A stretch of 64,000 bases of DNA from Martelella lutilitoris (lineage in GTDB: Bacteria > Pseudomonadota > Alphaproteobacteria > Rhizobiales > Rhizobiaceae): assembly GCF_005924265.1 (NCBI RefSeq), contig NZ_VCLB01000001.1, positions 496,001 through 560,000 of the forward strand. Direction: 5' to 3'. A program made the position numbers and the translations under genes. Below the pieces are notes generated by a model. That model was not told the DNA's origin and made no database searches. It saw nothing but the letters and a program-made list of their open reading frames with translations. Below are positions 23,702-64,000 of the stretch, piece after piece (position 1 is the stretch's first letter; every line of letters starts with the position of its first letter).

Positions 23702-24208
23702 ATGACCGCACTCGTCCGGCTCGCCGCCGTGGTCGCGCGTATCCTGGCCTTCATCGGCGCCGCAGGCGTCGTCTTGATGATGGTCCATATCAGCCTCGAT
23801 GTCGCGCTGCGTAACCTGTTCCGCATCTCGGTCCCCGTTACCACGGAAATGGTTGCGCGCTACTACATGGTCGCCACCGCCTTCCTGCCGCTGTCCTGGC
23901 TCGAACTGCGTCGCGAGATGGTGTCCGTCGAACTCTTCGATTTCGCGCTCACCCGTCCCGTCCGCCGCGTCTCCGATGCACTGGTCTGCCTTCTCTCGGC
24001 GATCGTCTATGCAAGCCTTGCCTGGACCACGTGGAATTCGGCGCTCTCCAATTTCCGCTCCGGCACCTATGTGGAACTGGCCTCAATGAAGATGCCAGTC
24101 TGGCACAGCTACTTCCTGCCATCGGTCGGTTTTGGCATCGCGGCGCTGACCTGCCTGCTTCTGACCTTCCAGGACCTTCATCCCGCCGCATCGGAGGAAA
24201 CCGCATGA
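23702..24208 (+). CDS. TRAP transporter small membrane subunit (DctQ type)
   Basis: Four-helix membrane subunit of 168 aa from ATG 23702. Hydrophobic segments are at about residues 8-35, 50-70, 88-110 and 130-155. The W-x-x-x-R-R-E-M-V-S-V-E-L-F-D signature of DctQ proteins is present (WLELRREMVSVELFD). It ends in an ATGA overlap with the large subunit. A 94-base gap separates it from dctP, with no recognisable terminator. Confidence 0.85.
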   Translation: MTALVRLAAVVARILAFIGAAGVVLMMVHISLDVALRNLFRISVPVTTEMVARYYMVATAFLPLSWLELRREMVSVELFDFALTRPVRRVSDALVCLLSAIVYASLAWTTWNSALSNFRSGTYVELASMKMPVWHSYFLPSVGFGIAALTCLLLTFQDLHPAASEETA

Positions 24209-25509
24209 ACCCCGAGGTCGGATTTGTCGGCATTGGCGTCCTGATCGTCCTGCTTCTTCTGCGCGTGCCGGTGGCCATGGCGCTGATCGCCGTTTCCTTT
24301 GGCGGCATCACCGCGCTTCTCGGGGTCACGCCGGCCTTCGGCATCCTGTCGAACACGCCCTATTCCTTCGTCGCCAGCTGGACCATGTCGGCGGTGCCGA
24401 TGTTCCTGCTGATGGGCTTCGTCGCCTTTCATTCCGGGCTCACCGGCGGGCTCTTCGCCGCCGCCAAGGTGGTGTTGCGCCGCCTGCCGGGCGGGCTTGC
24501 GGTCTCGTCCATCTTTGCCTGTTCAGGCTTTGCCGCCGTTTCCGGCTCGTCGCTCGCCTGCGCCGCGGCCATGGGCCGGATCGCCATTCCGGAAATGGTC
24601 GCCGCCGGCTATCGTCCCTCGATTGCGGCCGGATCGATTGCCGCCGGCGGCACGATCGGCGCGCTGATCCCGCCCTCGATCCTGATGATCATCTACGGCG
24701 TCTTCGCCGAGACTTCGGTCACCCAGGTCTTCATCGGCGGCATCGGCATCGGCGTTGTCACCGCCATCGGCTATTGCCTCGTCATCATCGGCATCAGCCT
24801 CGTGCGGCCCGACCTCGTGCCGTCCCGTGACACGTCGCCGGTCAGCGCGGAAGGCCGCGCCGCCATTTTGCAGGTGATCCCGATCACGGTTCTTGTGCTC
24901 CTGATCTTCGGCGGCATGTTCTCAGGGCTCTTCACGGCAACGGAGGCCGGCGCGGTCGGCGCGCTCGGCACGATCTTGCTCGCGGCCGTCACCGGTCGGC
25001 TGACCAGGTGGAACATCACCCATTCGCTGATCGATACCGTCACCTCGACCGGCGCGCTGTTCATCATCGGCGTCGGCGCTGCGATGTTCACCCGCTTTCT
25101 CGGCATATCCGGCCTGTCGCATTTCCTCTCGTCCTTCGTCGCCGGCGCCGATCTCGGCTATTTCAAGCTGATGCTGATCATCGTGCTGATCTACCTGGCG
25201 CTCGGCACCTTCATGGAGCCCTTCGGCGCCATGCTGACGACGCTGCCGATCTTCCTGCCGATCCTGCGCGCGGAAGGCATCAGCCTCGTCTGGTTCGGCG
25301 TCGTCGTGGTGAAGATGCTGGAAATCGGCATGATCACGCCGCCGGTCGGCATGAACGTCTTCGTCATCAAGAACGTTGCCGGCAAATATGTTTCGATCGC
25401 GCAGGTCTTTGCCGGCGTCCTGCCCTTCATCATCATGGATCTCTTCGTGATTGCGCTGGTGATCGCCGTGCCTTCGGTGGTGATGTTCTTGCCGGATCTT
25501 TTGAAGTGA
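24205..25509 (+). CDS. TRAP transporter large permease (DctM type)
   Basis: Sodium- or proton-coupled channel subunit of 434 aa, about 12-13 hydrophobic segments. GGTIGALIPPSILMIIYG is the DctM family hallmark; ATEAGAVGALG and GMITPPVGMNVFVIKNV are conserved elevator-domain motifs. The start ATG 24205 overlaps the dctQ stop by four bases (ATGA). It is the last plus-strand gene of the hydroxycinnamate unit and converges on pcaQ 8 bases later, so the two transcripts meet with almost no spacer. Confidence 0.87.
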   Translation: MNPEVGFVGIGVLIVLLLLRVPVAMALIAVSFGGITALLGVTPAFGILSNTPYSFVASWTMSAVPMFLLMGFVAFHSGLTGGLFAAAKVVLRRLPGGLAVSSIFACSGFAAVSGSSLACAAAMGRIAIPEMVAAGYRPSIAAGSIAAGGTIGALIPPSILMIIYGVFAETSVTQVFIGGIGIGVVTAIGYCLVIIGISLVRPDLVPSRDTSPVSAEGRAAILQVIPITVLVLLIFGGMFSGLFTATEAGAVGALGTILLAAVTGRLTRWNITHSLIDTVTSTGALFIIGVGAAMFTRFLGISGLSHFLSSFVAGADLGYFKLMLIIVLIYLALGTFMEPFGAMLTTLPIFLPILRAEGISLVWFGVVVVKMLEIGMITPPVGMNVFVIKNVAGKYVSIAQVFAGVLPFIIMDLFVIALVIAVPSVVMFLPDLLK

Positions 25510-26468: not shown

Positions 26469-26534
26469 GATACTTTCCCTTAAATATAATTTTTTGTGCG
26501 TCCTGGCTATGGCAAAACAGACTGGGAGGAACGC

Positions 26535-27710
26535 ATGATCATTCAAGCGAACGGTACTGCACTGCATGTGCGCCAGGACGGGCCTGAAAACGGCCGCGCG
26601 GTCCTATTCATCAATTCGCTGGGCACCGATCTCAGGGTCTGGGACCGGCTCCTGCCGCTCCTGCCGAAAGGACTTCGGCTCGTCCGTTATGATAAGCGCG
26701 GCCATGGTCTCTCCGGCCTTGGTCCCGCCGATACCGGTCTTTCCATCGAAACCCTTGCCGATGACGCGATCGCCCTTTGCGAGGCTCTGAAGCTTGAGGA
26801 CGTGACGCTGGTCGGGCTTTCGATCGGTGGTCTGATCGCCCAGGCCGTCACGCTGAAGCGTCCCGACCTTGCGCGCGCCATGGTGCTGATGGATACGGCA
26901 ATGCGCATCGGCACAGCCGAAATGTGGGGCGATCGCATCGCAGCGCTTGAGGCCGGCGGCATTGCCGCGATCTCGGAGGCGGTTCTGGCCCGTTGGTTCG
27001 CACCGGAATTCCTTGCGTCATCCGATGCCGCCATGTGGCGGGCCATGCTGGAACGCACCCCGCTCGAAGGCTACATCGCCTGCTGCAGGGCGCTGGCCGG
27101 CGCGGATTACACCTACCGCGCGGCGGACGTGAAATGTCCGGTGCTGGCGCTTTGCGGCGCGCTTGATGGTTCGACGCCGCCCGATCTGGTGCGCGCGACA
27201 GCCGAAGCCTACGGCGCGCCGTTCCATCTGATTGACAACGCCGGGCACCTGCCGCCCGTGGAACAGCCCGACGCCGTCGCGAAGCTTCTGGCAAGTTTCC
27301 TGAGCGGGACGGCTGACAGTGTTGCCGGCGGCCGCCATGGAATCGGCATGCGGGTCCGTCGCTCGGTTCTGGGCGATGCCCATATCGATCGGGCCGAGGC
27401 CGCCAAGACGACGCTCGACGAGGCCTTCCAGACGCTGATCACCGAAAGCGCCTGGGGCACGGTCTGGGCCTCGGACGCGATCAGCCGGCGGGAGCGCTCG
27501 ATGCTGACGCTGGCGCTGCTCGCCGCAACCGGCAATTTCGAGGAAATCCCGATGCATATCCGCGCGACGGCCCGTACCGGGGCCAGCCGGCAGGACGTGG
27601 TGGAGGCTTTCCAGCATGTTGCCATCTATGCCGGCGTGCCACGCGCCAATCATGCCTTGAAACTGGCAAAGGCTGCCTTTGCCGAAATGGAGGAAAATGA
27701 CGATGACTGA
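26535..27710 (+). CDS. pcaDC: Fused 3-oxoadipate enol-lactonase / 4-carboxymuconolactone decarboxylase
   Basis: Single 391-aa product carrying two consecutive steps of the protocatechuate branch. Residues about 1-258 are an alpha/beta hydrolase (oxyanion region FINSLGTDLRVWD, nucleophile elbow GLSIGG, catalytic His in DNAGHLPPVEQP). Residues about 270-391 form a carboxymuconolactone decarboxylase domain (TLALLAATGNFEEIPMHIRA). GGGAGGA precedes ATG 26535. In rhizobia pcaD and pcaC are usually separate; this layout resembles PcaL of actinobacteria. The domain order is enol-lactonase first, the order of the usual pcaD-pcaC gene pair. Confidence 0.9.
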   Translation: MIIQANGTALHVRQDGPENGRAVLFINSLGTDLRVWDRLLPLLPKGLRLVRYDKRGHGLSGLGPADTGLSIETLADDAIALCEALKLEDVTLVGLSIGGLIAQAVTLKRPDLARAMVLMDTAMRIGTAEMWGDRIAALEAGGIAAISEAVLARWFAPEFLASSDAAMWRAMLERTPLEGYIACCRALAGADYTYRAADVKCPVLALCGALDGSTPPDLVRATAEAYGAPFHLIDNAGHLPPVEQPDAVAKLLASFLSGTADSVAGGRHGIGMRVRRSVLGDAHIDRAEAAKTTLDEAFQTLITESAWGTVWASDAISRRERSMLTLALLAATGNFEEIPMHIRATARTGASRQDVVEAFQHVAIYAGVPRANHALKLAKAAFAEMEENDDD

Positions 27711-28431
27711 TCTGGGACCACTGATCCCGCGAAACCGGATGGTTCATCCCCCGGCCTATACGCCGGGCTACAAGACCTCGGTTGCCCGCTCGCCGAGCCT
27801 GCCGCTCCTGTCACTGGAAAGCGGCCCCTCGGAGGAGACCGGGCCGATGTTCGGCCACAACCAGCTCGGCGCGCTGGACAACAACCTGATCCTCAACTGG
27901 ACGAAGGGCGAGGCGCCCGCCGTCGGCGAGCGGATCCTGGTCTATGGCCGCATCATGGACGAGCGCGGCAAGCCGGTGCCCGAAACGCTGATCGAGATCT
28001 GGCAAGCCAATGCCGGCGGTCGCTACCGCCACAAGAAGGATACGTATTTTGCCCCGCTCGACCCGAATTTCGGCGGTTGCGGGCGCACGATCACCGATGC
28101 TGAGGGCAATTACCAGTTCCTTACCATCCGGCCCGGCGCCTATCCCTGGCCCAATGGCGGCAATGACTGGCGGCCGATGCATATCCACGTCTCGGTCTAC
28201 GGCCACAGCTTCGGCCAGCGCCTGATTACCCAGATGTATTTCGAGGGCGATCCGCTGATCCCGCTCTGTCCGATTGCCAACACCGTGCGCCAGCGCGGCG
28301 ATCTCGACGGCCTTGTCGCGCCGCTCGACATGAACATGTCGCGCCCGCATGACTTCCTGGCCTACAAGTTCGACATCGTGCTGCGCGGCCGTCGCCAGAC
28401 CATGTTCGAGAACAAGATGGAGGGGATGTGA
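27703..28431 (+). CDS. pcaH: Protocatechuate 3,4-dioxygenase beta subunit
   Basis: Iron-binding subunit of the intradiol dioxygenase that opens protocatechuate to 3-carboxy-cis,cis-muconate. The product is 242 aa from ATG 27703, nine bases after GGAGG; an ATG two codons earlier is too close to that site. The Fe(III) ligands are visible: Tyr in GGRYRHKKDTY, Tyr in GAYPWPNGG, and the two His of MHIHVSV. The GQRLITQMYFEGDPL segment is conserved. The start overlaps the pcaDC stop, and pcaG follows after one base. Confidence 0.95.
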   Translation: MTDLGPLIPRNRMVHPPAYTPGYKTSVARSPSLPLLSLESGPSEETGPMFGHNQLGALDNNLILNWTKGEAPAVGERILVYGRIMDERGKPVPETLIEIWQANAGGRYRHKKDTYFAPLDPNFGGCGRTITDAEGNYQFLTIRPGAYPWPNGGNDWRPMHIHVSVYGHSFGQRLITQMYFEGDPLIPLCPIANTVRQRGDLDGLVAPLDMNMSRPHDFLAYKFDIVLRGRRQTMFENKMEGM

Positions 28432-28432
28432 T

Positions 28433-29032
28433 ATGGTCCAGAAACTCGAAAATCTGCAGGAAACCGCATCCCAGACCGCCGGTCCCTACGTCCATATCGG
28501 ACTGATGCCGACCTATGCCGGCAATCCGGGTTCCTACGAGCAGGAAATCGGCGTCAGCCCCATTTCGGAAGGGGCGAAGGGCGAGATCATCGAAATCCGC
28601 GGTCAGGTGATCGACGGCACAGGCGGAGCGATCCGCGACGCCATGCTGGAAAGCTGGCAGCCGGACGCCGCCGGCATCTTTCCCGGCCAACCGGGCGCGG
28701 ATCCGGCGGTTTCCGGTCTCTGCCGTTTCGCAGCCGACGCCGACAGTGGCGAGTTTGTGCTGAAAACGGTCAAGCCCGGCGCCTTCAAGGGCAGGGGCGG
28801 CTCGCACAACGCGCCGCATATCTCGCTGTGGATCGCCGCGCGCGGCATCAATATCGGGCTCAACACCCGCATCTATTTCGAGGACGAGGATAATGCCAAT
28901 GACCGCATCCTCAATGCCGTCGAACTGAAGCACCGGGTGCCGACGCTGATCGCCAAGAAGACCGGAGACGGGCAATACCGTTTCGACGTTCGCCTGCAGG
29001 GCGATGCCGAGACGGTGTTTCTGGATATCTGA
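28433..29032 (+). CDS. pcaG: Protocatechuate 3,4-dioxygenase alpha subunit
   Basis: Non-iron partner of PcaH; the two form a hetero-oligomer. The product is 199 aa. It starts MVQKLENLQETASQTAGPYVHIGL, the typical PcaG opening, and keeps the dioxygenase fold segments IEIRGQVIDGTGGAI and NAPHISLWIAARG but not the Tyr/His iron set. The ATG lies one base after the pcaH stop, so the subunits are translationally coupled. Confidence 0.94.
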   Translation: MVQKLENLQETASQTAGPYVHIGLMPTYAGNPGSYEQEIGVSPISEGAKGEIIEIRGQVIDGTGGAIRDAMLESWQPDAAGIFPGQPGADPAVSGLCRFAADADSGEFVLKTVKPGAFKGRGGSHNAPHISLWIAARGINIGLNTRIYFEDEDNANDRILNAVELKHRVPTLIAKKTGDGQYRFDVRLQGDAETVFLDI

Positions 29033-29331
29033 GATCGGTTGCCGGCAGGAGCTCTGGCCATGCGTCCCTGGGGCCTTGCCGGCCACCCCGCGCCCGTTGC
29101 CTTCTATGCAGGAACAAGTCCGGCATAATGGCTAAGTGAACGCAAGGCCTCTCGGCGGCAGGACCGCCCTCCCACGTGCGTCATCTTCGGGTGTGACCCG
29201 AGGATCCAGTCATCTGTGTCACGGAGCGTGTTGGCGGACCTTGCATCCGGTATCGAAGCGGTTGAAGACAGGGGCCGGTTCCAGGCGCCCACCGGGGACT
29301 CGGCCGCTTGCAAACGAGAGGAGCACCACGC
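29033..29331. other. pcaG-pcaB gap carrying a REP-like palindrome
   Basis: About 300 bases without a credible gene, unusual inside a pca operon. Around 29180-29208 there is a CTTCGGGTGTGACCCGAGGAT palindrome variant related to the repeats at 53.3 kb. The rest shows no motif I recognise. Confidence 0.5.
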
Positions 29332-30384
29332 TTGACCATATCGGCATTCGAACATCCCTGGCTCGGCGGCTATTTCGGCGACCGGGAAACCGTCGCGATC
29401 TGGTCGCCGGAGCGGCAGTTGGGCCACATGCTGGCCTTCGAGGCGGCCTGGAGCCGGGCGATGGGCGCATGCGGGCTCTGTGATGCCGCAGAGGCCGAAA
29501 GGGCGGCCAAAGCAATCGAGGCGGCAGAAATTCCGCCCGAAGCGCTGAGGGCAGGCATGGCCGCAGACGGCGTGCCGGTGCCGGCGCTTCTTGCCATCTC
29601 ACGCAAGAGCGCGCCCGATGCCGCCCTGCACAAGGGCGCGACGTCGCAGGATGTGGTCGACAGCGCGCTTGCCATGACCTTGCGGGAGACGACGGCGCTG
29701 TTTCTCGACCGTCTGGCAGAGCTTGACGCAGCCCTGCAGGCGCTCGAGCGCCTGTTCGGCGATGCGAAGCTCATGGGCCGCACGCGCATGCAGGCGGCGG
29801 CCGATATCAAGGCGCGCGAGCGGATCGTCACATGGCGGCTGCCGCTCGCGGACCATGCCGATCGGCTGAGAGCCCTTGGGCCGCGCGTCGAAAAGGTGCA
29901 GATCGGCGGCGCTGCCGGCGACCGTGCGTCGCTTGGCGAAAAGGCGGAGGCGATGGTCGCCGCCGTTGCCGCGGAACTTGGACTTCGCCCCACCGGTAAA
30001 GCCTGGCACGCCATGCGCGAGGGCATTGCCGATTATGCCTCGGTGCTGTCGCTGATTTCCGGAACGCTCGGCAAGATGGGGCAGGACGTGGCGTTGATGG
30101 CCCAGCAGGGCATTGACGAGATCGTCCTTTCCGGCGGCGGCGGGTCGTCCGCCATGCCGCACAAGAACAATCCGGTCCTGGCCGAACTCCTGGTCACGCT
30201 TGCGCGCTTCAACGCCGTGCAGGTCTCCGGCCTGCATCATGCGCTCATCCATGAGCAGGAGCGTTCGGGCGCGGCCTGGAACCTTGAATGGATGATCCTG
30301 CCGCAGATGGCGCTTGCAACCGGGCGGTCTCTTTCGGCGGCGCTTGAGCTTTGCGGAAAGGTCAGGCGGATCGGCAAGGGCTGA
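29332..30384 (+). CDS. pcaB: 3-carboxy-cis,cis-muconate cycloisomerase
   Basis: Fumarase/aspartase-superfamily enzyme cyclising 3-carboxymuconate to 4-carboxymuconolactone. TTG 29332 gives 350 aa (MTISAFEHPWLGGYFGD); AGAGGAG lies eight bases upstream. The superfamily signature GGSSAMPHKNNPVL is present (about residues 270-283), as are the KGATSQDVVDSALA and RTRMQAA regions. Many PcaB proteins are slightly longer at the C-terminus. It completes the operon pcaDC-H-G-B; pcaIJ and pcaF for the later steps are not in the window. Confidence 0.92.
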   Translation: MTISAFEHPWLGGYFGDRETVAIWSPERQLGHMLAFEAAWSRAMGACGLCDAAEAERAAKAIEAAEIPPEALRAGMAADGVPVPALLAISRKSAPDAALHKGATSQDVVDSALAMTLRETTALFLDRLAELDAALQALERLFGDAKLMGRTRMQAAADIKARERIVTWRLPLADHADRLRALGPRVEKVQIGGAAGDRASLGEKAEAMVAAVAAELGLRPTGKAWHAMREGIADYASVLSLISGTLGKMGQDVALMAQQGIDEIVLSGGGGSSAMPHKNNPVLAELLVTLARFNAVQVSGLHHALIHEQERSGAAWNLEWMILPQMALATGRSLSAALELCGKVRRIGKG

Positions 30385-31765: not shown

Positions 31766-31879
31766 GTTTCCCGTTTGCGAATTCAGCCTGCCGCGCTTGA
31801 TTTTGGCGAATGCTTCGATAGATAGAGCCGAAACACTTCAAGCGGCATGACCTTTCGCCGCAACCCGAAAGGCCCGGCT

Positions 31880-32974
31880 ATGCAGACCCCCTATTATCTC
31901 ATCGACAGGTCAAGGCTTCAGCAAAACCTCGACAAGATCGCCTGGCTGCGCCAGGCTTCCGGCGCCAGGGCGCTTCTGGCGCTCAAATGCTTTGCCACAT
32001 GGTCGGTCTTCGATCAGATGAGCCGCCATATGGACGGCACGACATCCTCCTCGCTTTTCGAGGTCAAGCTTGGCCACGAGAAATTCGGCGGCGAGACCCA
32101 TGCCTATTCGGTCGCCTATGCCGAGGACGAGATCGACGAGGTGCTGGCGAATTGCGACAAGATCATCTTCAATTCGACCGGCCAGCTTTCGCGTTTTGAA
32201 GCACAGTCGGAAGGCAAGATCCGGGGCTTACGCGTCAACCCGCAAGTCTCGACCTCGGATTTCGACCTTGCCGACCCAGCGCGGCCGTTTTCGCGGCTGG
32301 GCGAGCATGATCCGGCGGTGATCGAAGCCGTGCTGGACCAGGTTTCCGGCTTCATGTTTCACAACAATTGCGAGAACGAGGATTTCGATCGCTTCGATGA
32401 AATGCTCACCGTCATCGAGCAGCGCTTCGGTCATTTGATCGAGCGCCTCGACTGGGTGAGCCTCGGCGGCGGCATCCATTTCACCGGCGAGAACTATCCG
32501 CTGGAAAAGCTCGCCGCGCGGCTCAAGGCCTTTGCCGAGAAATACAGCGTTCAGGTCTATCTGGAGCCCGGCGAGGCGGCGATCACGGGTGCCGCGACGC
32601 TGGAAGTGACCGTGCTCGACACGCTGAACAACGGCAAGGACCTTGCGATTGTCGATTCATCGATCGAGGCGCATATGCTGGACCTTCTGATCTATCGCGA
32701 AAGCGCGAAGATTTCGCCCGATACCGGGCCGCACAAGGTGATGATCTGCGGAAAATCCTGCCTTGCCGGCGATATTTTCGGGGAGTTTTCCTTTGAAGCC
32801 CCCGTAAAGGTCGGCGACCGGCTGTCGATCGAAAATGCCGCCGGTTACACTATGGTCAAGAAGAACTGGTTCAATGGCGTGAAGATGCCGGCGATCGCGA
32901 TCCGCGAGGAGAACGGCGAGATCCGTACCGTTCGCGAATTCGGCTATGAAGATTTCAGATCCGCCCTGTCGTAA
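31880..32974 (+). CDS. nspC: Carboxynorspermidine/carboxyspermidine decarboxylase
   Basis: PLP-dependent alanine-racemase-fold decarboxylase making spermidine or norspermidine in the S-adenosylmethionine-independent polyamine route. ATG 31880 gives 364 aa beginning MQTPYYLIDRSRL; an ATG 11 codons upstream adds unconserved residues. ALLALKCF contains the PLP Lys, and CGKSCLAGDIFGE has the catalytic Cys region. The NspC-typical GGGIHFTGENYP is present. The gene pairs with a carboxynorspermidine synthase downstream after 86 bases. Whether the product is spermidine or norspermidine cannot be told. Confidence 0.9.
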   Translation: MQTPYYLIDRSRLQQNLDKIAWLRQASGARALLALKCFATWSVFDQMSRHMDGTTSSSLFEVKLGHEKFGGETHAYSVAYAEDEIDEVLANCDKIIFNSTGQLSRFEAQSEGKIRGLRVNPQVSTSDFDLADPARPFSRLGEHDPAVIEAVLDQVSGFMFHNNCENEDFDRFDEMLTVIEQRFGHLIERLDWVSLGGGIHFTGENYPLEKLAARLKAFAEKYSVQVYLEPGEAAITGAATLEVTVLDTLNNGKDLAIVDSSIEAHMLDLLIYRESAKISPDTGPHKVMICGKSCLAGDIFGEFSFEAPVKVGDRLSIENAAGYTMVKKNWFNGVKMPAIAIREENGEIRTVREFGYEDFRSALS

Positions 32975-33060
32975 GACCGGGCTGACCCGCGGAGCGCTCC
33001 GCCGCTCCAACCCTTGATTTCGGGCAGGCAAAGCTGCCTAAAACCGGAGGCGTTGTTCCG

Positions 33061-34305
33061 ATGAAGAAAAATGTGCTGATTATCGGCGCGGGCGGCGTGG
33101 CCCAGGTGGTCGCCCATAAATGTGCCCAGAACAATGATGTGCTCGGCGATATCCATATCGCCTCGCGCACCAAGTCCAAATGCGATGCGATCATCGAAAG
33201 CGTTCTGGAAAAGAAGGCGATGAAACAGGATGGCGTCCTGCTCGCCCATCAGCTTGATGCGCTCGACATTCCCTCGACGGTCGCGCTGATCAACCAGACC
33301 GGCGTCGAGATCGTCATCAATGTCGGCACGGCCTTCCTCAACATGTCGGTTCTCGAAGCCTGCCTCGAAACGGGCGCGGCCTATATCGACACGGCCATCC
33401 ACGAAGAGCCGGACAAGATCTGCGAAACCCCGCCGTGGTATGCAAACTACGAGTGGAAGCGCAAGGATCGCTGCGCTGAAAAGGGCGTCACCGCCATTCT
33501 CGGCGCCGGTTTCGATCCGGGCGTCGTCAATGCCTATGCGCGGCTCGCCAAGGACGATTATGTCGACGACATCACCGACATCGACATTGTCGACATCAAT
33601 GCCGGCAGCCACGGCAAGTATTTCGCCACGAATTTCGACCCGGAAATCAATTTCCGCGAGTTTACCGGCACGGTCTATGCCTGGCAGAACAATGAATGGA
33701 CGACGAACAGGATGTTCGAGGTCGGCCATGAATTCGATCTGCCGGTCGTCGGCAAGCAGAAGGCCTATATGTCGGGCCATGACGAGATTCACTCACTGTC
33801 GAAGAATATGGGTTCGCCCAATGTCCGCTTCTGGATGGGTTTCGGCGACCACTACATCAATGTCTTCACCGTGCTGAAAAGCCTCGGCCTCTTGTCCGAA
33901 CAGCCGGTGATGACGGCGGAAGGCCAGGAAGTGGTGCCGCTGAAGGTGGTCAAGGCCGTACTGCCCGACCCGTCCTCGCTCGCGCCGAACTATACCGGCA
34001 AGACCTGCATCGGCGATTTCGTCAAGGGCACCAAGGAGGGCAAGCCGGCGGAAGTCTTCATCTACAATGTCTCCGACCACAAGGAGGCTTACAACGAAGT
34101 CGGCTCGCAAGGCATTTCCTTTACCGCCGGCGTTCCCCCGGTCGCAGCCGCCATTCTGGTGGCGTCGGGCGAATGGGATGTGAAGACCATGGCCAATGTC
34201 GAGGAATTGCCGCCCAAGCCCTTCCTGCATGTGTTGAACCACATCGGGCTGCCAACCCGGATCAAGGACGAAAACGGCGACCGCGCGCTCGATTTTTCGA
34301 AATAG
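33061..34305 (+). CDS. Carboxynorspermidine/carboxyspermidine synthase (saccharopine dehydrogenase family)
   Basis: Reductive condensation of aspartate semialdehyde with putrescine or diaminopropane, the step before NspC. The product is 414 aa, MKKNVLIIGAGGVAQVVAHK, with a Rossmann loop at residues 9-14. The protein keeps the TGAAYIDTAIHEEP and LGAGFDPGVVNAYAR segments typical of CASDH. ATG 33061 follows a GGAGG-like site (CCGGAGGCG). Being next to nspC, it defines a two-gene polyamine module common in rhizobia. Confidence 0.9.
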   Translation: MKKNVLIIGAGGVAQVVAHKCAQNNDVLGDIHIASRTKSKCDAIIESVLEKKAMKQDGVLLAHQLDALDIPSTVALINQTGVEIVINVGTAFLNMSVLEACLETGAAYIDTAIHEEPDKICETPPWYANYEWKRKDRCAEKGVTAILGAGFDPGVVNAYARLAKDDYVDDITDIDIVDINAGSHGKYFATNFDPEINFREFTGTVYAWQNNEWTTNRMFEVGHEFDLPVVGKQKAYMSGHDEIHSLSKNMGSPNVRFWMGFGDHYINVFTVLKSLGLLSEQPVMTAEGQEVVPLKVVKAVLPDPSSLAPNYTGKTCIGDFVKGTKEGKPAEVFIYNVSDHKEAYNEVGSQGISFTAGVPPVAAAILVASGEWDVKTMANVEELPPKPFLHVLNHIGLPTRIKDENGDRALDFSK

Positions 34306-59401: not shown

Positions 59402-60304
59402 TCAGGCGGTCAGGTTTGTCGGCTCGGCAAGCCCGCGACGGCGACAGGCAGCCGTCAGCGTGTTGGCCAGCAGGCAGGCGATCGTCATCGGGCCGACGCC
59501 GCCCGGCACCGGGGTAATGGCGCCGGCGACCGTACTTGCCGCAGCAAAATCCACATCGCCCGTCAGCCGCGTCTTGCCCGGTCCGCGCTCCGGCGCGTCG
59601 ATGCGGTTGATGCCGACATCGATCACGCTCGCGCCGGGCTTGATCCAGTCGCCCTTTATCATCTCGGGCCTGCCGACGGCGGCGACCACGATATCGGCCC
59701 GGCTGACGACGGCCTTCAGGTGGCGGGTCTGGGAATGAGCGATGGTGACCGTGGCGTTGGCGGCAAGCAGCAATTGCGCCATCGGCTTGCCGACAATGTT
59801 GGAGCGGCCGATGACGACGGCTTCAAGGCCGGAGAGGTCGCCGTGTTCGGCCTGCAGCATCATCAGGCAGCCGAGCGGGGTGCACGGCACCATCGCCTTC
59901 TGTCCGGTCGCCAGAAGGCCGACATTCTCGATGTGAAAACCGTCGACATCCTTCGCCGGGTCGATCGCCGCCAGAACCTCGGCTTCGGCTATATGACCGG
60001 GCAGCGGCAATTGCACGAGAATGCCGTCGACCGCGTCATCGGCGTTCAGCCGGTCGACGAGGGCGAGAAGATCGGCGGCGGCGATCTCTTCGGGCAGGCG
60101 GTGTTCGAAGGAGTTCATGCCCGCCTCGACGGTCTGTCTGTGCTTGGCGCGGACATAGACTTCGGATGCGGGGTCATCGCCAACCAGAACCACGGCAAGG
60201 CCCGGCGTCACGCCATGTTCGGCCTTCATCCGTGAGACGTGGCAGGCCACCGCGCCGCGAATGCGGGCGGCAAAGGTCTTTCCGTCAATGATCTTCGCCG
60301 TCAT
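59402..60304 (-). CDS. folD: Bifunctional methylenetetrahydrofolate dehydrogenase/cyclohydrolase
   Basis: NADP-linked interconversion of 5,10-methylene-, 5,10-methenyl- and 10-formyl-THF, cytoplasmic. The product is 300 aa. [15 protein letters not shown] has the catalytic Lys (K-x-K variant, K-H-R here), [21 protein letters not shown] and [15 protein letters not shown] are conserved, and [10 protein letters not shown] is the C-terminal block. It lies 36 bases after yciI and in the same direction, so it looks like the last gene of the ligAB operon. That would supply C1-folate turnover to a THF-dependent O-demethylase. Confidence 0.93.
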
Positions 60305-60340
60305 CTCGTCCTCCCGTCGGCGTTTCCCGTGCGAGCCGGT

Positions 60341-60673
60341 TCAGTTTGCCGGAAGGCGCGGGCTCATCGGCTCGCTGATCCGCCCGGCCTGGAACGTATC
60401 GGGCAGGGGGGTCAGTTCGGTGGTCGCGACGATGCCTGCCTTGCGAAAGGGGTCGCCTTCGGCAAAGGCTTCGGCATCGGCGCGGTTTTTTGCTTCCAAT
60501 ATGCCGAAATTGCCGCAGGAGCGGCCCTCGTCATCGACAAGCGCCGAGCCGATCAGCACCGAGACCAGTCCCTTGCCGCCGGAAGCGACCCATTCGCGGT
60601 GCTGCGGGCGGATTTTTTCGCGCAACTCATCGACGTCCGGATTGTTCAGGCAGCGCATCAGGAAAAACGCCAT
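60341..60673 (-). CDS. YciI-family protein
   Basis: Muconolactone isomerase-like ferredoxin fold, 110 aa from ATG 60673, coupled to the ligB stop by an ATGA overlap. MAFFLMRCLNNPDVDELREKIRPQH opens the domain; the conserved His is followed by a DEGRSCGNFGILEA strand and FAEGDPF. Possible roles are lactone or ring-fission product handling in the meta-cleavage route. No precise reaction can be assigned. Confidence 0.8.
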   Translation of the reverse strand: MAFFLMRCLNNPDVDELREKIRPQHREWVASGGKGLVSVLIGSALVDDEGRSCGNFGILEAKNRADAEAFAEGDPFRKAGIVATTELTPLPDTFQAGRISEPMSPRLPAN

Positions 60674-61512
60674 CACGCATTCTCCAGCACGACCATGCCG
60701 GCGCCGGTGAGCGAAGCGGGGGCAAAATAATGCCTGTGCTTCATCTCCACATGCGGGTTCATCGCCGCCCGCATCACCAGCCACATGATCAGTTCCGCGC
60801 CCTCCGAGCCAAACTGGTCGACATAGTCCTTGCGGCTCATGTTCCGGTATTTCTCGTAGTCATTGGCGATGCCATCAAGCCAGGCCTCGTCGGCCTCGCG
60901 GTTGATGAAGCCGGCGCGGCTGCCCTGAAGCTGGTGCGAAAGCCCGCCCGTGCCCATGATCACCACGCGCTCATCGCCGGGGAAGCTTTCGATCGCCTTG
61001 CGCAGCACCTTGCCCATTTCCCAGCAGCGCTGCGGGGTGGGGATCGGGTACTGGATGGTGTTGACCCAGATCGGCACCACCTTGACCGGCCAGTGTTCGG
61101 GACGGCCGAAGAACAGTTCCAGCGGCACCTGAAGGCCGTGGTCAACCTCGATCTCGCGGCAGACCAGCGGGTCGAAATGGTTTTCCACCATCGTGTCGAC
61201 GATATGCCATGAGAGATCGGCGGCGCCCTCGAAATCGGGCACGGCGCGCGGCCCCCAGCCCTCGTCCACCGGCTTGTAGCTGTCGGCGACGCCGATGGCG
61301 AAGGTCGGCACGCGGTCGAGGAAGAATGTGTTGCCATGGTCGTTGAAGATGACGACGGCGACATCGGGCTTCTTCTCCGCCATCCACTTCTTGCCCGGGA
61401 TATAGCCGTCGAAGAAGGGCTTCCAGTCGGGCGTTTCGGCAAGTCCCTTGTCGAGCGCCACGCCGATGGAGGGCACGTGGCTGGTGCCCACGCCGCCAAT
61501 GATTTCGGCCAT
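60673..61512 (-). CDS. ligB: Protocatechuate 4,5-dioxygenase-type extradiol dioxygenase, beta (catalytic) subunit
   Basis: Class III Fe(II) ring-opening dioxygenase of 279 aa, close in pattern to LigB of Sphingobium SYK-6. SHVPS gives His12; NDHGN gives the second His (about residue 59); DEGWGPRAVPD and MGTGGLSHQLQGSRAGF are the conserved blocks; GSEGAELIMWLVMR carries the Glu ligand. The start (ATG 61512) overlaps the ligA stop (TAATG). Gallate or 3-O-methylgallate are alternative substrates. Confidence 0.88.
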   Translation of the reverse strand: MAEIIGGVGTSHVPSIGVALDKGLAETPDWKPFFDGYIPGKKWMAEKKPDVAVVIFNDHGNTFFLDRVPTFAIGVADSYKPVDEGWGPRAVPDFEGAADLSWHIVDTMVENHFDPLVCREIEVDHGLQVPLELFFGRPEHWPVKVVPIWVNTIQYPIPTPQRCWEMGKVLRKAIESFPGDERVVIMGTGGLSHQLQGSRAGFINREADEAWLDGIANDYEKYRNMSRKDYVDQFGSEGAELIMWLVMRAAMNPHVEMKHRHYFAPASLTGAGMVVLENA

Positions 61513-61853
61513 TACGCCTTCCCCAGTCTTGTCTTGAGAAATTCCTCCTGGCTCATGCCGGCCTGCGCCGCGCCGATCTCGGCCATGCTGGCCGGGTCGA
61601 TCGCCGCGATCTTCAGGATGAAGAAGAGATTGCCGCCAAGGGAGATCATCTTGTGCCAGTCGCGGCTCATGACCGCCTGTTTCTCCGCCGCGCCGAGGCC
61701 GAAACTGTCGAGAAAGGCCGCCTCGTCGGCGATGAAGGCCGCGCGGTTTTCCGGCTTGCCGAGCGACATCGCCATCTTGTTCATCCGATAGCCGTTTTTC
61801 GAACGTTCGCGTTCGAAGAGCGGGGTTTCGGGAATTTCGAGCACGTCAGACAT
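61512..61853 (-). CDS. ligA: Protocatechuate 4,5-dioxygenase-type alpha subunit
   Basis: Small helical subunit of the extradiol dioxygenase, 113 aa from ATG 61853 with AAGGAGG upstream. The GYRMNKMAMSLGKPENRAAFIADEAAFLDSFGL region is the LigA-domain pattern, and the C-terminal EEFLKTRLGKA is usual. It is shorter than SYK-6 LigA. It overlaps the alpha/beta hydrolase by 8 bases and ligB by one, so all three are co-translated. Confidence 0.86.
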   Translation of the reverse strand: MSDVLEIPETPLFERERSKNGYRMNKMAMSLGKPENRAAFIADEAAFLDSFGLGAAEKQAVMSRDWHKMISLGGNLFFILKIAAIDPASMAEIGAAQAGMSQEEFLKTRLGKA

Positions 61854-62556
61854 TGAGCTCCTCCTTATGCTGATCGAGCCAGCCGGTAATGGCGGCAACC
61901 GTTTCCGCCGGGCGCTCCACGGGCATGAAATGCCCGGCGCCGTCGATCACTTGAACCTCGGCCTTGTCGAGTTGCTCTGCGATCTCGCGATGCTGCTTTT
62001 CCGGTGACCAGCCGTCCTGCGCGCCGGTCAGCAACAGCACCGGACAGGTGATGGCGGGAATGTAGTCCATCGCGTTCGGGCGCTCCATGATGGCGCGGAT
62101 CTGGCGGGCATGAACGTCAGGCCCGGCCTTGAGCACCATGTCCGTCAGGTCGTCGACAAGCGCCGGGTCCGGCGTGATCCCCTGCGCGAGCATCGGCGGC
62201 AGCCATTCGGCGGCAAGGGCGGCCATGTCCTCGTAGCCGCGGGCGATCTTGGCGAGCCGCTTGGGCGCCTCGTTCTCTCCCACGCCGTCATGTCCGGTAT
62301 TGGCCAGAATGAGGCCGCGCATGCGCTCCGGCGCCTGGTGCGCCATTTCCATGGCAACCCGCCCGCCCAGGGAATGGCCGATGGGGATCAGCGGCCCGTC
62401 ATTCTCGCGCAGGAGACAGGCCGCCATGCTCTCGATGGTCGGTTCGCGGGTGATGTCGGCATTGGCCACGGCGAGCCATTCCGGCGCGGCCTGGGCAACA
62501 GCGCGCCACACGCGGGCATCCGACACCAGGCCGGGGATGAGAAGCAATGTGGTCAT
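61846..62556 (-). CDS. Alpha/beta hydrolase, first gene of the lig operon
   Basis: Product of 236 aa from ATG 62556 (GGGAGGG upstream). LLLIPGLVSDARVW has the oxyanion region, IGHSLGGRVAMEMA the nucleophile Ser, and DGAGHFMPVERP the catalytic His. It heads the operon hydrolase-ligA-ligB-yciI-folD. Role could be hydrolysis of a ring-fission product, a lactone or an aromatic ester such as a gallate ester; the sequence does not decide. Confidence 0.85.
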   Translation of the reverse strand: MTTLLLIPGLVSDARVWRAVAQAAPEWLAVANADITREPTIESMAACLLRENDGPLIPIGHSLGGRVAMEMAHQAPERMRGLILANTGHDGVGENEAPKRLAKIARGYEDMAALAAEWLPPMLAQGITPDPALVDDLTDMVLKAGPDVHARQIRAIMERPNAMDYIPAITCPVLLLTGAQDGWSPEKQHREIAEQLDKAEVQVIDGAGHFMPVERPAETVAAITGWLDQHKEELNV

Positions 62557-62640
62557 GATCGGCCCTCCCAACGCCATCGTGAATACATTTTTGGAGGATT
62601 AGCGAAAAATTGGGGGGAAATCAACCAAGAATCGCCTATA

Positions 62641-62650
62641 ATGTATACAT
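62641..62650. promoter_or_regulatory. GntR operator copy 1 (ATGTATACAT)
   Basis: Perfect 10-base palindrome, 84 bases upstream of the hydrolase start on the minus strand. It lies in a 16-base arm (62641-62656) that is repeated inverted at 62709-62724. Confidence 0.7.
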
Positions 62651-62714
62651 AGATCGATCGAAAGACGCTTGAGGCCTTGCTGACGAGCCGGATGATCTTG
62701 CCCTGATCCGATCT

Positions 62715-62724
62715 ATGTATACAT
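62715..62724. promoter_or_regulatory. GntR operator copy 2 (ATGTATACAT)
   Basis: Same palindrome, 50 bases before the gntR start. Its centre is 74 bases from copy 1, close to seven helical turns. Confidence 0.7.
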
Positions 62725-62774
62725 TAGGCGTTCACGGCCCGGTCCATCGGGTCGCATCAGGTCCGGAGGTTGGA

Positions 62775-63530
62775 ATGGACAGGCAAACGACGGCGAAGAC
62801 CCACACGATGAGGGCGCTGGTGGAGCTGCGCAAGCGGATCCTCGACGGCGCCATTCCGGGCGGTACGCGCCTGTTCGAGGTGGCGTTGGCCGACGACCTT
62901 CAGATCTCGCGCACGCCGGTGCGCGAGGCGATGTCGCGGCTGGCGGAGGAGGGGCTTTTGGAGCGCGCCCGCAGCGGCGGCTTTCTGGTGCGCAGCTTTG
63001 CCTATGCCGATGTGCTGGACACGATCGAGCTGCGCGGCGTGCTGGAGGGCACGGCGGCGCGGCTGGCGGCCGAACGCGGGGCGAGCGAGAAGGCGCTGAA
63101 GGAGATTTCCGCCATTGTCCGCGCGCTTGACGGCTGTGTCGGCGTTCATCCCGACGAGGTGGACTTCGAGACCTATTCGGAACTCAACAGCGAGTTTCAC
63201 GATGCGCTTGCCGCCCTGCCGCGCTCGGCCACGCTGGAGCGCGAGCTGGCCCGCGCCAAGCAATTGCCCTTTGCCTCGCCCTCTGCCTTCCTGCCGGACA
63301 AGACCAAGCTTTCCGACTTCCGCCGCTCGCTGCAGGTGGCCCAGGAGCAGCACCGCGAGATCGTCACCGCGATTGCCCAGCGGCAGGGATCGCGAGCGGA
63401 GGCTCTGGCGCGCGAACATGCCTGCGCGGCGCGGCGGAACCTCGAATATATCTTCTCCAAGGACCGTAACCTCGTCAGCGCGGTGCCCGGCCTTGCGCTC
63501 GTGGCGCCGAACGACCAAGCGCTGACCTGA
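62775..63530 (+). CDS. GntR-family (FCD) regulator of the lig/ligM module
   Basis: Repressor of 251 aa from ATG 62775, five bases after GGAGG. The N-terminal winged helix has IPGGTRLFEVALADDLQISRTPVREAMSRLAEEGLLER, the GntR signature; the C-terminal FCD domain carries metal/ligand residues such as ELNSEFHDAL and EQHREIVTAI. It lies between the lig operon and the ligM-like gene, with operators in front of all three transcription units, so it should control them and itself. Confidence 0.87.
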   Translation: MDRQTTAKTHTMRALVELRKRILDGAIPGGTRLFEVALADDLQISRTPVREAMSRLAEEGLLERARSGGFLVRSFAYADVLDTIELRGVLEGTAARLAAERGASEKALKEISAIVRALDGCVGVHPDEVDFETYSELNSEFHDALAALPRSATLERELARAKQLPFASPSAFLPDKTKLSDFRRSLQVAQEQHREIVTAIAQRQGSRAEALAREHACAARRNLEYIFSKDRNLVSAVPGLALVAPNDQALT

Positions 63531-63605
63531 GCGCGTGCCAGTATCGCGAGAATTTGCAGGCGGGGTGTTTTTCCGCTTGCATTCTTGAGGCCGAATTGCA
63601 AATGT

Positions 63606-63615
63606 ATGTATACAT
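63606..63615. promoter_or_regulatory. GntR operator copy 3 (ATGTATACAT)
   Basis: The palindrome is exact, and it extends into an 18-base palindrome AAATGTAT-GT-ATACATTT (63600-63617). It is 28 bases before the ligM-like start. A related ATGTATACCC lies inside that gene at 63725-63734. Confidence 0.7.
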
Positions 63616-63642
63616 TTCTTACGAGCTGGGAGGAGCGAGAAA

Positions 63643-64000
63643 GTGTCGGGTCAAAGCCTATCGACTGTAATGAAGGGGTTTTCAAACCCTGTAGAGCTTT
63701 TGAGGAATTCGCGTTCGGGGATTTATGTATACCCCGTCGTGGCGCCGGAATTTTCCAACTGGCGCAGTGAGCAGATGGCATGGCGCCACACCGCCGTGCT
63801 GTTCGACCAGACCCATCACATGGACGAACTGATCGTCGAGGGTCCGGATGCCGAGGCGTTTCTCGCCTATGTCGGGATCAATGCGTTTTCGAATTTCGAT
63901 CTCAACCGCGCCAAGCATTTCGTGCCGGTCACGCCCGCGGGCCATGTCGTGGGCGACATGATCATCTTTCGCGAGCGTGAGGACAAGTTCGTGCTCGTCG
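63643..64000 (+). CDS. LigM/DesA-like tetrahydrofolate-dependent aromatic O-demethylase, 3' end cut by window edge
   Basis: GcvT-like enzyme expected to move a methoxy methyl group from vanillate, syringate or 3-O-methylgallate to tetrahydrofolate. GTG 63643 lies seven bases after GGGAGGAG. The visible 119 residues include NPVELLRNSRSG, VVAPEFSNWRSEQMAW, AVLFDQTHHMDEL and GINAFSN, all close to LigM and DesA of Sphingobium (family knowledge). The methyl-accepting partner folate would be processed by FolD or MetF-type enzymes; folD is in the facing operon. Substrate specificity cannot be told from this part. Confidence 0.85.
   Translation, partial: MSGQSLSTVMKGFSNPVELLRNSRSGIYVYPVVAPEFSNWRSEQMAWRHTAVLFDQTHHMDELIVEGPDAEAFLAYVGINAFSNFDLNRAKHFVPVTPAGHVVGDMIIFREREDKFVLV

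Follow-up and report, generated by a model that had tools for sequence, protein, structure and literature searches.

The window analysed here, a 64,000-nucleotide stretch of Martelella lutilitoris (C1:496001-560000, C1 being the contig that carries the locus, NZ_VCLB01000001.1, in an assembly of 4.45 Mb in total), ends in a divergent cluster in which the genes of a GntR-type regulator and of LigM, a tetrahydrofolate (THF)-dependent O-demethylase, face an operon for a hydrolase, LigA, LigB, a YciI-like protein and a bifunctional folate enzyme, FolD2. We consider it likely that the genes of this locus form a regulon that deals with methoxylated aromatic acids (vanillate, and probably 3-O-methylgallate), in which folate-linked demethylation, oxidation of the methoxyl carbon to formate and opening of the ring would be governed together by a GntR repressor that methylene-THF releases. 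The proposal draws on gene families, operators, conservation and the second-copy status and purifying selection of folD2 as observed here, on operator binding and effector recognition as published for a relative in Agrobacterium fabrum, and on the direction of a methylenetetrahydrofolate reductase (MTHFR) as published for Sphingobium SYK-6; from these we infer the effector in Martelella, the order and direction of flux, the ring substrate and the role of YciI.

The locus looks like a fuller version of the Sphingobium and Agrobacterium systems. Its parts are each already published, namely LigM paired to an MTHFR that runs in reverse, the regulator along with its effector and operator, and the MetF2-FolD-PurU set. 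No report of ligM, folD and purU joined in one regulon was found in the open-access literature searched, and the text of PMC9404685 contains no occurrence of metF, folD or purU; similar gene sets in many bacteria were reported by Yu et al. 2025 (Commun. Biol. 8, 323), according to PMC12585457. O-demethylation through folate is a bottleneck for the use of lignin-derived aromatics: in Pseudomonas putida, with LigM replacing VanAB, growth on vanillate also needed MetF, LigH and a host mutation (PMC12997858, in the part available). The Martelella locus would be a natural set of all four one-carbon steps under one switch.

The GntR regulator and its operator

The regulator aligns with the structure of Atu1419 of A. 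fabrum (6z74_A) over residues 2-244 of the 250-residue chain (phmmer E 1.2e-86, the query being the longer open reading frame (ORF) that starts at 62715 and not the one from the likely ATG at 62775). In an alignment of 25 sequences, ours included, the residues with which Atu1419 contacts its ligand (Arg86, Tyr133, Asn137, His141, His214, Asn221) and its DNA (Glu34, Arg45, Thr46, Arg49) are identical in 25/25; Lys175 and Arg183, which take part in one of the ligand poses, are variable. According to the available parts of its description, Atu1419 binds ATGTATACAT, represses atu1418 (metF-like), atu1419 itself and atu1420 (ligM-like), and is released by N5,N10-methylene-THF, THF and methyl-THF being ineffective (PMC7797058). 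That locus, atu1418-atu1419-atu1420 of strain SpG8-1b, has the same GntR type, the exact 10-bp operator and the LigM and MetF families found in Martelella; the same account, which covers eight genes and six enzymes of hydroxycinnamate degradation, mentions no folD, purU, ligAB, TRAP or gal genes in the parts available (PMC7797058). In a locus of Agrobacterium salinitolerans (L076; loci are numbered L, genomes G and contigs C), relatives of MetF2 (58%), GntR (59%) and LigM (76%) are arranged in a way that agrees with the published gene order.

Three exact copies of ATGTATACAT occur in the window, compared with 0 in 100 shuffles of it, which argues that the grouping of these genes is not due to chance. 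Genome-wide there are four, before the hydrolase operon, gntR, ligM and metF2, all at this locus and with no further exact copy elsewhere in the 4.45-Mb assembly. Among 13 Martelella genomes (own included) the exact operator is found in 5; the cluster is present in all 5 and holds 18/21 of their sites. The preliminary description of this DNA had placed the locus under a single GntR regulator, and an Atu1419-type protein with operators before four transcription units supports that view. By analogy with Atu1419, a folate intermediate probably induces the regulon: GntR would repress the four units through ATGTATACAT, methylene-THF would release it, and the methoxyl carbon itself would be the substrate signal. 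If this is true, any substrate that loads methylene-THF could induce ring cleavage.

To place the locus among its relatives, 84 loci were compared, comprising our own, three from other Martelella and the best 80 of at least 541 confirmed GntR candidates from a genome scan, a choice that favours near relatives. By their titles nearly all belong to the Rhizobiales or Rhodobacterales; three non-Alphaproteobacteria (L093, L095, L096) were kept in the counts, L014 was left out as a duplicate of L017, and 71/84 loci are longer than 19 kb, absences in the other 13 meaning less. In this set (1.64 Mb) ATGTATACAT occurs 139 times, in 71/84 loci; none of 29 control palindromes matched in composition has more than two copies over the same loci. 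Within 280 bases upstream, the operator precedes LigM in 54/70 loci, MetF2 in 33/51, GntR in 29/84, the hydrolase in 13/27, the catechol-2,3-dioxygenase-like gene (C23O) in 4/29 and PurU in 2/24, and none of DctP (37), FolD2 (6), GalB (26), GalD (27), YciI (25) or LigB (23). The spacing is also kept, 41/55 of the LigM-associated sites in relatives sitting 26-30 bp before the LigM match. The conserved operator is hence an easy genomic marker that tags regulon genes, possibly new ones too, across the Rhizobiales and Rhodobacterales.

Thirteen of the 139 sites have no known regulon gene within 220 bp. Ten ORFs beside ten of them were scanned (E 1e-25) and gave acyl-CoA synthetase and enoyl-CoA hydratase (L021), pcaH (L093), a weakly UrtA-like substrate-binding protein (L030) and selD (L083), with five ORFs matching no family. 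The pcaH site (L093:1974-3678) lies in a bin titled Chloroflexi, where a 45% GntR relative is accompanied by one exact operator 110 bp before the gene; if this is not contamination, the switch extends beyond the Proteobacteria. In a Rhizobiaceae bin (L083:10496-11668), ~3.3 kb from the GntR gene, selD (selenide, water dikinase), an odd target for this regulon, is preceded by two exact operators 75 bp apart.

The proposed one-carbon route and the second folD

That the ligM product is a THF-dependent O-demethylase, as the preliminary description held, is supported by its score against the equivalog NF047885 (624.1 bits, cut-off 580) and by the LigM structures 5x1i and 5tl4 (E ~5e-160); against the DesA syringate O-demethylase equivalog NF047633 it reaches 554.9 bits, below the cut-off of 800. 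Extension to the right, where a metF had been sought, revealed a metF-like gene along with a TRAP transporter and purU. The metF-like product, MetF2, is weak by Pfam (nothing at 1e-3; PF02219 11.9 bits, cut-off 24) and was caught by the search of solved structures, in which it matches the MTHFR 7xg9 over residues 13-294 (E 6.8e-50), canonical MTHFRs reaching only ~1e-3. We take 7xg9 to be the SYK-6 enzyme, and the full-length relation to it over canonical MetF marks MetF2 as an SYK-6-type MTHFR of predicted activity. MetF2 is 95% identical to its counterpart in M. radicis, and the canonical metF lies apart on contig C17. PurU passes TIGR00655 (320.4 bits, cut-off 285.95), and a formate dehydrogenase alpha is encoded on C2 (962 bits versus 666).

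MTHFRs normally run toward methyl-THF. In the route that we propose, LigM would move the methyl group onto THF, MetF2 would oxidize the resulting 5-methyl-THF to methylene-THF, FolD2 would take this on to 10-formyl-THF, and PurU would hydrolyse the latter to formate and free THF, an irreversible step that would pull the chain; the formate dehydrogenase encoded elsewhere would complete the oxidation. Judged by gene families, every step from methoxyl to formate is encoded at the locus by LigM, MetF2, FolD2 and PurU, in keeping with the recycling of the methyl carbon suggested in the preliminary description. Its idea of a link like metF/ligH with a different folate gene has to be given up, for the locus has both purU and an SYK-6-type metF, and no 10-formyl-THF synthetase (the ligH kind) was found in the genome.

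The ligM-metF-ligH operon of SYK-6 shares with this locus LigM and an MTHFR run in reverse (PMC6888825, PMC12585457); there the MTHFR oxidises 5-methyl-THF (PMC12585457), and the further handling of the carbon is ascribed to FolD and LigH. In contrast to Martelella, with its GntR, purU and folD2, SYK-6 carries ligH and relies on DesR, a MarR-type regulator whose inducers are vanillate and syringate. The chloromethane genes of Methylobacterium extorquens CM4 include the same MetF2-FolD-PurU set for THF oxidation, plasmid-borne and partly redundant with the chromosome, but the methyl donor there is chloromethane, by way of CmuA and CmuB, and not a methoxyaromatic by way of LigM (PMC3621897, in the parts available). 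It is also conceivable that the branch mainly feeds methylene-THF to biosynthesis, as proposed for SYK-6, which supplies one-carbon units through LigM and its MTHFR (PMC12585457), and that formate release is an overflow valve. The presence of the canonical metF in the genome, together with a purU that follows ligM in the same orientation and points to oxidation to formate, makes this quite unlikely in our view.

Because methylene-THF, the presumed inducer, would be made by MetF2 and used by FolD2, FolD2 and PurU may drain the inducer and damp the switch. Whether the locus forms a self-contained and self-limiting circuit, with a regulator that ignores the aromatic compound and reads the folate-bound methoxyl carbon and with an acquired FolD2 and PurU that finish the route and remove the inducer, is a matter on which we would be tentative, giving it somewhat less than an even chance.

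The layout had been thought unusual outside the sphingomonads, which is not what the 84 loci indicate. LigM is found in 70 of them, MetF2 in 51, PurU in 24, LigA with LigB in 23 and FolD2 in 6; LigM occurs with MetF2 in 46, with LigAB in 21, with MetF2 and PurU in 20 and with MetF2, PurU and FolD2 in 6. The folD is the sole rare element (6/84). When 385 genomes sampled from the class were searched for LigM, 7 had a match at E<=1e-120, our own included, and 11 loci from the other 6 were compared. In two of these (L136, L137; family f15) a LigM/DesA relative, classed by NCBIfam as desA in L137, is accompanied by folD and a metF-like gene (31%), a separate occurrence of the link; three (L138-L140) have a 32% PurU match, one (L130) has a 51% GntR, and the exact operator is in 0/11. 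In both family f15 loci (L136:6498-10691, L137:9224-14272) the LigM/DesA relative or desA and an adjoining homologue of our hydrolase (38-39%) are divergent from the metF-like gene and folD, and L137 has two folD genes in tandem.

A check of the genome for another folD found one at C12:85262-86149, 58% identical to folD2, near ATP synthase genes (by eye) and 5 kb from a second purU, so that the locus gene is a second copy and the notion of an only copy can be dismissed. Over the 13 Martelella genomes, folD2 (93-94%) occurs in 4, each time within the cluster, and the housekeeping folD (56-60%) in 13/13; an only folD kept at this locus in strains without ligAB, which would have spoken against a dedicated role, was not seen. 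In a FolD tree of 28 rows, FolD2 falls among the Rhodobacterales FolDs, split from 7/8 Rhizobiales copies (100/99) and beside the copies of Maritimibacter alkaliphilus SY-2-18 (L018) and Pseudooceanicola nanhaiensis (L019) (94/85). The tree omits the long paralogues L115, L116, L118 and L119, which distorted a 34-row version, and the duplicates L098 and L099; long branches remain at L111, L109 and L002, the first of them a Rhizobiales copy placed with the Rhodobacterales. We suggest that folD2 probably arrived together with the cluster, having served a Pseudooceanicola-like donor as its housekeeping copy, and that Martelella then kept it in the operon.

Such an origin raises the alternative that folD2 is a passenger, the donor's housekeeping folD having lain beside the lig genes, been carried along into Martelella and added nothing specific. 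The tree placement fits this, as do the facts that in L018 and L019 no folD was found in the genome besides the one next to ligAB, 220-310 bp from yciI, that P. marinus has a folD 6 kb past its lig locus and that a cluster-bearing Martelella (G012) has no folD2. Set against these are the retention of folD2 by four Martelella besides their own folD, with a dN/dS of 0.10-0.17 (4 pairs computed of 6 possible) that signifies purifying selection, a yciI-folD2 gap in Martelella of 40-46 bases between aligned ends, inside the operon, and the presence of metF2 and purU in the same regulon; on balance we find the passenger explanation doubtful, though not far-fetched. The word dedicated, applied to this folD in the preliminary description, may suit a second copy under purifying selection and does not suit the L018 and L019 genomes, where it is the only folD found, or G012, where it is absent. 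Divergent folD paralogue pairs (37-44% to folD2) 8-9.5 kb apart also occur in other Martelella and Pseudooceanicola (L143, L144, G001:C53, G003:C38, G011:C44, G016:C16, G017:C1); the pair scanned, L143, flanks creatininase-like, cytosine-deaminase-like and ABC transporter genes, with IclR-type genes also present, and was set aside. One G003 copy has an in-frame TGA.

Ring cleavage and the weight of the evidence

LigB aligns over its length with LigAB (1b4u_B, E 1.2e-86) and also with gallate dioxygenase (3wku, E 1.8e-72). LigA stays under the protocatechuate-specific cut-offs (TIGR02792, 94.8 versus 108.6; NF009918, 95.9 versus 161), and against the gallate dioxygenase model NF009904 (cut-off 412), which spans both subunits and is harsh on a split enzyme, LigB and LigA scanned apart give 308.3 and 63.9. 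The hydrolase reaches only 79 of 256 bits against the PcaD model, the best solved relative of YciI is TftG (4lbh, E 3.8e-4), and the order hydrolase-LigA-LigB-YciI is intact in 19/23 loci with LigA and LigB. Farther along, GalB (4-oxalomesaconate hydratase) matches 5cgz (E 5.5e-95) and GalD (oxalomesaconate tautomerase) passes NF033377 (499 versus 440 bits). In P. nanhaiensis (L019) and M. alkaliphilus SY-2-18 (L018), dctM and purU enclose relatives of galB, the C23O-like gene, the RraA-family gene and galD, and in P. marinus (L020) such relatives run in the same direction as hydrolase-ligAB-yciI, a placement that ties the galB-galD region to the pathway.

Assigned by family, genes of each kind needed for the linear 3-O-methylgallate pathway (MgaABC-GalDBC) are present: a LigAB-like pair, an alpha/beta hydrolase and galBCD-like genes. 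In the syringate pathway of Pseudomonas sp. NGC7 (vanA1B1-mgaABCD and galDBC), the LigAB-like MgaAB, the hydrolase MgaC and an isomerase feed GalD, GalB and GalC, as is proposed here; that pathway differs in its Rieske-type VanAB, which releases formaldehyde, in its isomerase MgaD, which is SnoaL-like and not a YciI, and in VanR2, which responds to syringate or 3-O-methylgallate (PMC12314914, in the parts available). The subthreshold LigA, the pca genes in the window, the gallate-type lower pathway, the conserved gene order and the related hydrolase next to desA in L137 and to the LigM/DesA relative in L136 favour 3-O-methylgallate or gallate over protocatechuate as the more likely substrate of LigAB. 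Hydrolase-LigA-LigB-YciI would open the ring of 3-O-methylgallate (or gallate) toward 4-oxalomesaconate, which GalD, GalB and a GalC-like aldolase would take to pyruvate and oxaloacetate, and protocatechuate formed from vanillate could enter the pca genes. YciI is a candidate isomerase of the ring-cleavage product and, if it acts as such, would be a third, unrelated kind besides DesD and MgaD.

Classical protocatechuate 4,5-cleavage of the SYK-6 kind, with LigAB acting on the protocatechuate formed by LigM, would agree with the best alignment of LigB, that with 1b4u, and with LigM being a vanillate demethylase by family. Two PF04909 amidohydrolases past metF2 could include a LigI-like enzyme, LigI being a member of this superfamily, and this makes the alternative slightly stronger. 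It is nonetheless rather unlikely in our estimation, since LigA scores below both protocatechuate cut-offs, the 3,4-cleavage genes pcaDC-H-G-B stand in the same window, the linked galB and galD follow gallate-type cleavage, and scans of chosen right-hand ORFs named no ligC and gave the amidohydrolases no NCBIfam family (1e-20), no genome-wide search for ligC or ligI having been made.

Several observations count against a methylene-THF-controlled regulon for methoxylated aromatic acids. The case is built on sequence and on relatives, and the preference of LigAB for 3-O-methylgallate is one that we infer. The wing-tip Gly66 of Atu1419 is Ser in this GntR, at a position that varies in the alignment. 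The exact operator is missing from 16/70 LigM upstream windows, 14/84 loci carry GntR with no LigM match, and galB and galD, 11 kb past metF2 in this genome, have no exact operator. L018 and L019 lack one before the hydrolase operon, whereas the four folD2-bearing Martelella have one, and L130, an unbiased LigM find with its GntR alongside, lacks one in 15.9 kb; these absences slightly weaken the regulon proposal and strengthen the passenger explanation of folD2. Finally, C12 carries further copies of folD and purU, and FolD2 is absent from 78/84 loci and from the cluster-bearing G012, which implies that the route needs no folD of its own.

Layout of the locus and neighbouring genes

The gene list, coordinates and strands given in the preliminary description for folD, yciI, ligB, ligA and the hydrolase (-) and for gntR and ligM (+) agree with ours (Table 1). 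The minus-strand genes are tightly coupled, with a hydrolase/ligA overlap, TAATG at ligA/ligB, TGATG at ligB/yciI and a gap of 36 bp between yciI and folD. Of ligM, 119/470 codons lie within the window.

Table 1. Features of the locus and its surroundings (window positions unless prefixed C1)
Feature	Position	Strand	Evidence or remark
TRAP dctM	24031-25509		upstream of pca genes
pcaDC, pcaH, pcaG, pcaB (protocatechuate 3,4-cleavage)	26496-30384		~30 kb left of lig genes
folD2, bifunctional methylene-THF dehydrogenase/cyclohydrolase, second copy, Rhodobacterales type	59402..60304	-	PF02882/PF00763; NF010785 499.3 bits, cut-off 396
yciI-like gene, candidate ring-cleavage-product isomerase	60341..60673	-	PF03795 40.2 bits, cut-off 24
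ligB, catalytic beta subunit, LigAB-type extradiol dioxygenase	60673..61512	-	PF02900 197 bits; NF009901 377.6, cut-off 290
ligA, alpha subunit	61512..61853	-	PF07746 106.9 bits
alpha/beta hydrolase, candidate CHMOD methyl-ester hydrolase (putative DesC/MgaC-like role)	61846..62577	-	PF12697/PF00561
operator ATGTATACAT	62641..62650	.	exact; 63 bp before hydrolase-ligAB-yciI-folD operon
operator ATGTATACAT	62715..62724	.	exact; 50 bp before gntR; 74 bp from first copy
gntR, Atu1419-type FCD/VanR-group repressor	62775..63530	+	phmmer to 6z74; ATG at 62775 likely start
operator ATGTATACAT	63606..63615	.	exact; 27 bp before ligM
ligM, THF-dependent vanillate/3-O-methylgallate O-demethylase (predicted)	63643..64000, on to C1:561055	+	NF047885; GTG start
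dctP (TRAP transporter)	C1:561373-562359		right of ligM; dctM next; an ORF takes the place of dctQ
purU	C1 ~564469-565317		downstream of ligM, same strand
operator ATGTATACAT, fourth copy	C1:565486-565495	.	exact; 34 bp before metF2
metF-like gene (metF2)	C1:565530-566450		306 codons; behind own operator
galB, catechol-2,3-dioxygenase-like gene, RraA-family gene (putatively GalC-like), galD	C1:577576-581158		11 kb past metF2

Between metF2 and galB (C1:567.1-575.2 kb) lie TctA-type transporter genes, the two amidohydrolases and a flavin reductase, with no exact operator; by eye, the same interval holds a Rieske ferredoxin and a 2Fe-2S ferredoxin gene and is possibly a separate aromatic-acid pathway. 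Beside the pca genes, at window positions 31847-34305, are a carboxynorspermidine decarboxylase and a carboxynorspermidine-synthase-like gene, the latter below its cut-off.

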